Under the pieces are notes generated by a model that was not told where the DNA came from, searched no databases, and saw nothing but the letters and a program-made list of their open reading frames with translations. A stretch of 64,000 nucleotides of DNA from Acidimicrobiia bacterium (GTDB lineage: Bacteria > Actinomycetota > Acidimicrobiia > IMCC26256 > JAMXLJ01): positions 1-64,000 of the forward strand of contig DASRES010000081.1 of assembly GCA_035651955.1 (NCBI GenBank), given 5' to 3'. This document shows, piece after piece, positions 487 to 1,770 of this stretch (its first letter is position 1; each line of letters opens with the position of its first letter). Position numbers and translations under genes: made by a program.

Positions 487-585
487 TCACATTCGCGGAA
501 GTCCCAGCGACCCGGGAGCGAGGCTATCGGCGGCGTGACCTGCGGGGTCGCAGGCAATCGGCAGCTGCGGGTATTGATCACGGCG

Positions 586-1770
586 ATGACTCCACCCGAG
601 GCAGTGCTGCTCGACGTCGGTGGCGTGTTGCTGCTCCCCGACCACGACCGCATCTGCGACGCGTTCCGGCGTGCCGGCAGCGTCGCACCGCGTGACGCGC
701 TCGATCGCGCGCACTACATGGCCGCGGCCGGGTTCACGACCGACAAGGACGCGCTGGGCGACTGGGTCGGGTGCTGGCAGCGCTACCTCGACGACTACGT
801 CGACGCGTGCGACGTACCGGCCGACGAACGCGAGGACGTCCACCGCCATCTCGACAGCGAGTTCGCGGACGCCGCGCTCTGGTCGGCGGTCGCGCCCGGC
901 GCGCGTGAGGGTCTTGCCGACCTCGCGCGCACGGGCGTCGCGCTCGGCATCGTCTCGAACGCCGACGGCGTGATGGGTGAGCGGCTGCGGCGGCTCGAGC
1001 TCCTGCAGGTCGGTCCGGGCGTTGGCGTCGAGGCCGCGTGCGTCATCGACTCGGGTGCGGTCGGCGTGATGAAGCCCGATCCGCGCATCTTCGAGCTCGC
1101 GCTCGACGCGCTCCGCCTCACCCCGGGCGTCACGTGGTACGTCGGCGACATCCCGGGCATCGACGTCGTCGGTGCGCGACGCGCGGGTCTGCGACCGTTC
1201 CTGCTCGACCCGTTCGAGCTCCACCACGGTGCGGACTACGAACGTGTCGGATCGCTGCGCGAGCTTGCCCGTCTCGTCGACGACGCGCGCCACGAGGGGA
1301 CGACGGACGGTCGGCGCCGGTTCAGCCTGGCATCCGCGTTCGCGGCCGCGCGCGACGGGGACGAGGGCATGGCGCGATGGGTGGGCGAGTTCCTCGCGAG
1401 TCGCGGGAGCGACAACGCGACGTTGGCGTCGGGGCTGGCCCAGGATCGCCATTGGTGGGCGGGCCCGGTGCGCGTTCCCGTCGACGATCTCGTCACGCTC
1501 GCCGGTCCCGAGGGCGACGACGTGCTGTGCGAGGTCGACCCCGACGAGTGGGAGCGCGACGTCGAGCACATGGAGCGCCATCTCGACGAAGGCTGGGAAC
1601 CGCCGCCCCTGATCGCGCAGTACGACGACGGTCAGCTCCTGCTGCAGGACGGCAACCACCGCCATGCCGCGATGCAGCGCGCCGGCGAGTCGGACGCGTG
1701 GGTCATCGTCTGGTTCGACGACCGCGACGAGCGCGACAGCTTTCGCGCGACGCACACGTCGAGATCGTGA
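586..1770 (+). CDS. HAD-family hydrolase fused to a ParB-like C-terminal domain
   Basis: The start at 586 puts the HAD nucleophile motif LLDVGGVLL within the first 15 residues; an earlier in-frame start at 535 would add 17 unsupported residues. Residues ~5-225 form a HAD hydrolase (nucleophile Asp, SNADG motif II, Lys in MKPDPRIFE, and GDIPGID for motif IV), probably a phosphatase or dehalogenase-type enzyme. Residues ~245-394 are a separate domain ending in LLLQDGNHRHAAM, which resembles the DGxHR element of ParB/sulfiredoxin-fold proteins. The gene converges on livF with a 5-base gap. Substrate is unknown; the fusion is seen directly, the second fold is inferred from the motif. Confidence 0.75.
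   Translation: MTPPEAVLLDVGGVLLLPDHDRICDAFRRAGSVAPRDALDRAHYMAAAGFTTDKDALGDWVGCWQRYLDDYVDACDVPADEREDVHRHLDSEFADAALWSAVAPGAREGLADLARTGVALGIVSNADGVMGERLRRLELLQVGPGVGVEAACVIDSGAVGVMKPDPRIFELALDALRLTPGVTWYVGDIPGIDVVGARRAGLRPFLLDPFELHHGADYERVGSLRELARLVDDARHEGTTDGRRRFSLASAFAAARDGDEGMARWVGEFLASRGSDNATLASGLAQDRHWWAGPVRVPVDDLVTLAGPEGDDVLCEVDPDEWERDVEHMERHLDEGWEPPPLIAQYDDGQLLLQDGNHRHAAMQRAGESDAWVIVWFDDRDERDSFRATHTSRS

Follow-up and report, generated by a model that had tools for sequence, protein, structure and literature searches.

A HAD-type hydrolase fused to a predicted ParB/Srx-fold domain, and the pairing of that domain with two unrelated phosphatase families

The gene considered here occupies positions 586-1770 of the forward strand in the window, by which is meant the whole 64,000-nt stretch of DNA analysed, taken from the start of a contig of 131,665 bases in a 4.1-Mb draft genome. 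In a single frame it encodes a HAD hydrolase followed by a ParB/Srx-fold domain. The open frame can start at GTG 535 or at ATG 586, and stops at 1770; 394 aa is the likely length of the protein, because the HADs of its relatives start about where ATG 586 lies. An AlphaFold2 model of this full-length chain has a pLDDT of 91.6 and a pTM of 0.70. The neighbour at 1776-2510, on the reverse strand and thus convergent with the fused gene, resembles an ABC-transporter ATPase by eye. An artefact or a shifted frame was ruled out as the source of the fusion: a second genome (G142, represented by loci L017, L035 and L077) carries the same joining of HAD and domain, with a longer linker. A preliminary description of this DNA had placed a HAD phosphatase and a ParB/Srx-like domain in one frame, and this was borne out; one frame of 394 residues contains a PF00702 match and a predicted ParB/Srx fold, and the fusion is confirmed as genuine.

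The HAD half (residues 1-235; 586-1290, forward strand) matches the Pfam families PF00702 (E 8e-15) and PF13419 (1.1e-8). Its best NCBIfam model is TIGR02252, of the REG-2-like/HDHD3 HADs (E 1.5e-20), and its best PDB match by sequence is HDHD3 itself (3k1z, E 5.2e-9); it differs from that family in scoring 73.9 bits against a cut-off of 155.2, and in having DxGGV/I as motif I. The top structural match of the full-length model, among matches that span residues 1-237 only, is the HAD phosphatase 4ygq (Z 22.1, rmsd 4.7, 182 residues). A motif check located motif I, DVGGV, at residues 10-14 (613-627); motif II, SNAD, at 124-127 (955-966); motif III, KPDPRIF, at 163-169 (1072-1092); and motif IV, GDIPGID, at 187-193 (1144-1164), all on the forward strand. 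The nucleophile D10 is present, and it is kept, with S124, K163, D188 and D193, in all eight HADs aligned (the window's and seven relatives). Equally constant, in the same eight, is Gly12 in the place of the second Asp (D+2) of motif I. That second Asp is usual in phosphatases; DxG is also found in motif I of some known phosphatases, such as YihX. The fold and motifs I-IV are those of a HAD phosphatase, save for this one residue. The window's genome holds another HAD as well (L085, contig C86 of G000), 44-45% identical to the first, without the domain and in a separate starred group of the HAD tree.

The C-terminal half (residues 241-394, 154 residues; 1306-1767, forward strand) matches no Pfam or NCBIfam model. 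ParBc (PF02195) matched none of 15 members of the domain family at E ≤ 10, in a search whose filters remove most weak matches; the weak Pfam matches obtained, to DndB (0.26) and DUF6551 (0.37), come from one member each and are at chance level. Three kinds of comparison nevertheless converge. The phage family phrog_1033, annotated 'ParB-like partition protein', matches 21 of the 24 members at E ≤ 0.1, with a best value of 2.8e-6 and 0.0025 for the window's own copy. A 15-row profile searched against the PDB found a sole match, to ParB 4umk, at an E of 0.18 that is weak alone; its GERR aligns on the sequence DGNHR of the domain. An AlphaFold2 model of the domain, built on 24 copies, has a mean pLDDT of 94.3 and a pTM of 0.88, and Foldseek returned 11 matches to it at E ≤ 0.001, the best being ParB, Noc, Srx, SerK and SbnI. 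With VIA-align the model superposes on ParB 7bnr_A (Z 11.3, rmsd 2.4, 79 residues), Arabidopsis Srx 6ky4 (Z 11.2, rmsd 3.1, 82 residues), SerK 5x0b (Z 9.9, rmsd 5.3, 87 residues) and SbnI 5ujd_A (Z 8.7, rmsd 3.9, 85 residues); Osa 4ovb spans the whole domain, weakly (Z 5.1, rmsd 5.0, 101 residues). From the profile match, the phage family and the model together, the domain is therefore predicted with confidence to have the ParB/Srx fold. The structure prediction that the preliminary description had proposed for its suggested ParB/Srx relation thus brought ParB, Srx, SerK and SbnI all among the best fold matches, and no unrelated fold.

DGNHR (residues 355-359; 1648-1662) is identical in 24 of 24 copies and, through its alignment with the 4umk motif, corresponds to the GxxR that constitutes the P motif of ParB-fold proteins; those ParB-fold proteins that were tested needed the arginine of this motif to bind nucleotide (PMC12704722). 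A second invariant element, GSDN (residues 274-277; 1405-1416), belongs to a helical extension at the domain's N-terminus and is present in all 24 rows, the window's included. Two residues after DGNHR a Glu is nearly invariant in the domain alignment (E121), and no Glu there is strictly so; the window protein has Ala at this place (residue 361, 1666-1668). The residue preceding DGNHR is Gln in 13 of 24 copies, comprising every copy on the HAD side (see below) except L024, and Glu in the other 11, namely all ten linked to a histidine phosphatase and L024. Judged from the alignment, this Gln/Glu alternation is a lineage mark beside the P motif.

The closest structural relatives invite comparison with systems of known function. 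Sulfiredoxin is likewise a single-domain ParB fold with GxHR at the phosphate site. Its catalytic Cys lies in GCHR. The domain differs in its helical extension with GSDN, and in having Asn at the position of that Cys in 24 of 24 copies; sulfiredoxin proper is ruled out by this replacement, and no Srx reaction is to be expected. SerK and SbnI share the fold, a small-molecule setting and the lack of a DNA-binding domain; they differ in that the alignment reaches no further than 87 and 85 residues, with identities of 18 and 15%, and in their longer chains of 241 and 254 residues. The catalytic Glu of SerK is E30, and E30 mutants are named in PDB titles among the fold matches. A ParB of the ParABS kind was also ruled out: the chain ends with the fold, has no helix-turn-helix and no dimerisation domain, and gives no PF02195 match. 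No parA was recognised among the neighbours, which were judged by eye from their first residues. Membership of a defence system was considered too, and none of the three proteins tried gave a PADLOC match at E ≤ 0.1.

A 2025 survey, for which PF02195 served as query model, found ParB-fold domains in frequent fusion with other domains and able to bind ATP, CTP or GTP (PMC12704722). The fusion described here is like the ParB-CTPase-fold fusions of that survey in joining a GxxR-bearing ParB fold to another enzyme domain, and in being an orphan with no ParA seen; it differs in belonging to a family without a match to the survey's query. The survey's main text contains neither the word 'phosphatase' nor 'haloacid'. 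A search of the open-access literature, judged from titles and the beginnings of abstracts, found no account of a ParB-fold/phosphatase pair, and no paper on the DGNHR motif was found there. As far as seen, then, the divergent domain family and its fusion fall within the known range of ParB-fold fusions and are apparently undescribed so far.

The distribution of the domain was followed in several samples. A six-frame search matched 19 of 296 genomes of the class sample, 16 of them strongly (E ≤ 1e-31); the other three (L025-L027), at E 0.004-0.007, were treated as chance and left uncounted. In the order sample, the same kind of search matched 11 of 58 genomes. The phylum sample, with at most nine candidates scored per genome, gave 5 of 396, four from the class and one weak. 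A contig scan with the alignment gave 20 loci, and one with the window's domain alone gave no match, in a method that depends on a short exact motif and misses distant relatives. One of these 20 (L047) is from a named strain, Ilumatobacter nonamiensis YM16-303; the 19 from metagenome assemblies are labelled Acidimicrobiia, Acidimicrobiales, Ilumatobacter or Ilumatobacteraceae, Microthrixaceae, or only Actinomycetota or Actinomycetes, with one Nitriliruptorales. After duplicates were merged, 24 genomes were collected: the window's, L030-L048, L020, L022, L023 and L024. Not counted are G385 (E 9.7e-5), a viral contig (L066) and contig-end fragments of G092 and G107 (L028/L049/L060 and L029/L061). 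On these searches the domain is apparently a narrow actinobacterial family, mostly of Acidimicrobiia and usually a stand-alone gene.

Outside this group little was met with. Phage records gave no match, and among plasmid records only two, both from Rhizobium, did. The viral-contig protein, of 1318 aa, includes a ParB-like segment with LLEDGNHR (L066, 5001-5216), 29% identical over 68 residues. One Rhizobium plasmid (L050, 5959-6405) has a distant copy of the domain with an internal TGA, overlapping a P-loop kinase gene by 8 bases; in the other (L067, 3001-3162) only the first 64 residues of the domain match, and the start of the match lies within the final part of a P-loop kinase gene. The P-loop kinase was considered as a third partner and dropped: both Rhizobium copies are broken, and none of the eight other kinase records examined, from ten listed, holds the domain.

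The genes next to the domain are more regular. With partners assigned by hand, two of the 24 copies are fused to the HAD (the window's and L035), and seven (L024, L030, L031, L034, L036, L040 and L048) are directly preceded on their own strand by a gene for this HAD, at 59-68% identity to the window's. A histidine phosphatase resembling the CobC/PspA kind takes the HAD's place upstream in ten copies (L020, L022, L023 and L041-L047), the window's not among them. Its fold is unrelated to that of the HADs; the example in L044 matches PF00300 at E 2e-36, its NCBIfam matches all fall below cut-off, and the other nine are 57-80% identical to it. Three copies have neither phosphatase adjacent (L032, L033 and L039, the last with only 439 bases upstream), and two lie at contig ends (L037 and L038). 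Where measured, the spacing between domain and phosphatase genes runs from a slight overlap to about 115 bases. The preliminary description had also proposed looking for stand-alone neighbours of each half; both halves do exist as separate genes, often adjacent.

Whole genomes divide in the same way. Among the 16 with a strong match to the domain, 12 have the HAD at 58% identity or more (partial only in G166), and in the remaining four (G083, G110, G190 and G259) it is the histidine phosphatase that is present, at an identity of at least 67%; no genome has close forms of the two together, none lacks both, and cross matches do not exceed 41%. The HAD is on another contig than the domain in G080, G107, G200 and G166, and in the first three of these it is divergent to an aminotransferase-like gene. 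A gene that by eye resembles class-I aminotransferases (MEFRR...PPYxF) is the divergent neighbour of HADs found away from the domain (L072, L073, L075, L081, L082, L084, L103, L107 and L108). The class sample contains 25 genomes with a HAD of the wider family at E ≤ 1e-50, 11 with the domain and 14 without, and eight with the histidine phosphatase at that threshold, four with the domain (67-100% identity) and four without (48-53%).

Among solved structures, the histidine phosphatase is closest in sequence, at a distance, to phosphoserine phosphatase 1 (4ij5, E 1.7e-10), and SerK is an ADP-dependent serine kinase that makes O-phosphoserine (PMC5120207). Together these hint at a possible phosphoserine link, as a lead only. 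Replacement of a missing phosphoserine phosphatase was considered and set aside: canonical SerB (TIGR00338) is over cut-off in 2 of the 16 genomes with the domain, versus 73 of 296 in the class sample, so that its absence is uninformative.

In the domain tree, a starred branch (95/90) separates the ten copies linked to a histidine phosphatase from all others, whether HAD-linked, fused, unlinked or at a contig end; a single swap of partner is therefore enough. Support for grouping the window's copy with L035, the other fused one, is 79/79. The fusion would have arisen in one or two events, and both copies may derive from one. The HAD tree has 32 rows, after exclusion of L079 (partial) and of L080 and L087 (distant). 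All nine linked or fused HADs fall within a starred set of ten (98/97), the tenth being that of G158, in which no domain is detectable; a wider starred set of 14 adds three unlinked HADs from genomes with the domain, and that of G103, a genome without it.

A possible promoter element accompanies many of the stand-alone genes. In 9 of 21 stand-alone copies (L020, L023, L037, L040-L043, L046 and L047), the start codon of the domain gene is preceded by GGGTA at a distance, counted from the first base of GGGTA, of exactly 15 or 16 nt; of 141 further predicted ORF starts within these loci, 3 have it anywhere from 8 to 20 nt upstream (Fisher 3e-7, for copies that are related by descent and a background of crude starts). 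We take the element to resemble the -10 box of stress sigma factors, and its position suggests a near-leaderless, stress-related expression of the domain genes. In the window, GGGTAT (569-574, forward strand) starts 17 nt before ATG 586 and is, speculatively, a putative element of this kind.

The whole may be understood as metabolic: a small-molecule phosphatase and an enzyme of ParB fold, the latter with the help of a nucleotide, would act on one metabolite. We favour this reading tentatively, rating its chances a little short of even. That is, the N-terminal half would be a HAD-type small-molecule phosphatase; the C-terminal half would be a single-domain module of the ParB/Srx/SerK fold, binding nucleotide through DGNHR; this module would act on the phosphatase's metabolite, phosphoryl transfer like that of SerK or Srx being the likeliest reaction; the pair would make and remove, or remodel, one phosphorylated small molecule; and the fusion would tether the two enzymes. 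The analysis itself establishes the predicted fold, the conservation of the motifs, a fusion present in two genomes and the gene pairing with two phosphatase families; that the ParB-fold half binds nucleotide and is catalytic, that the HAD is an active phosphatase, that both have one substrate, and which way the reactions run, is what we infer beyond it. The pairing outlives the exchange of the HAD for a differently folded histidine phosphatase, which makes a common chemistry, that of a phosphomonoester, a likelier object of conservation than a protein-protein contact. A two-step nucleotide or phosphate reaction, which the preliminary description had thought conceivable, is made likelier by the gene pairing. 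Several observations count against metabolic coupling or its parts: three copies have no phosphatase neighbour, with the HAD elsewhere in the genome; HADs of the wider family also occur in genomes without the domain, 14 of 25 in the class sample; the HAD's motif I is without its second Asp; the window protein has Ala for a nearly invariant Glu; and NTP binding is not to be assumed, as 17 of 28 purified ParB-fold proteins in the 2025 survey showed none (PMC12704722). A more specific form, which we think unlikely to be right in full, would have a ParB-fold small-molecule kinase and a HAD or histidine phosphatase run one phosphorylation cycle, bifunctional in some lineages and possibly expressed under stress.

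The main rival, rather unlikely in our estimate, makes the ParB-fold half a non-catalytic switch that senses a nucleotide and controls the attached or neighbouring phosphatase. ParB is itself a CTP switch, and motifs of the nucleotide pocket change according to the domain that is fused (PMC12704722); two genomes, besides, have both halves in one chain. A regulator that touches its partner's surface is hard to reconcile with pairing to two unrelated phosphatase folds, however, and the domain is unlinked in three genomes; a metabolite-sharing enzyme is preferred because a regulator that grips its partner would hardly survive such a swap. The same swap bears on the suggestion that the halves are merely neighbours, a conserved two-gene unit serving unrelated tasks that was joined when a stop codon happened to be lost. 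The splitting of the pair in three genomes would suit this, as would the HAD-bearing class-sample genomes that lack the domain and the chance that the two fused copies are one event; but the exchange keeps a phosphatase in the same position, and each of the 16 domain genomes has exactly one of the two close phosphatases, which leaves mere neighbourhood decidedly unlikely. Least probable, to our minds a long shot, is action on nucleic acid, with the domain a nuclease or a DNA clamp in the manner of ParB, Noc or Osa, and the phosphatase trimming or recycling nucleotides. ParB and Noc do stand among the closest structural matches, the phage ParB-like families match in sequence, and Osa aligns end to end, if weakly; set against these are a protein that ends with the fold, with neither helix-turn-helix nor dimerisation domain, and the negative searches already given for Pfam, for parA by eye and for PADLOC.

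Many ParB-fold proteins outside chromosome segregation are without a known job, and for these a genomic partner gives a useful hint. That the neighbours of this domain are phosphatases of two unrelated kinds, one of which is also found fused to it, points to a phosphorylated small molecule. The protein is small and confidently modelled, and suited to tests of nucleotide binding and phosphoryl transfer; these would show whether ParB-fold kinases extend past SerK and SbnI.
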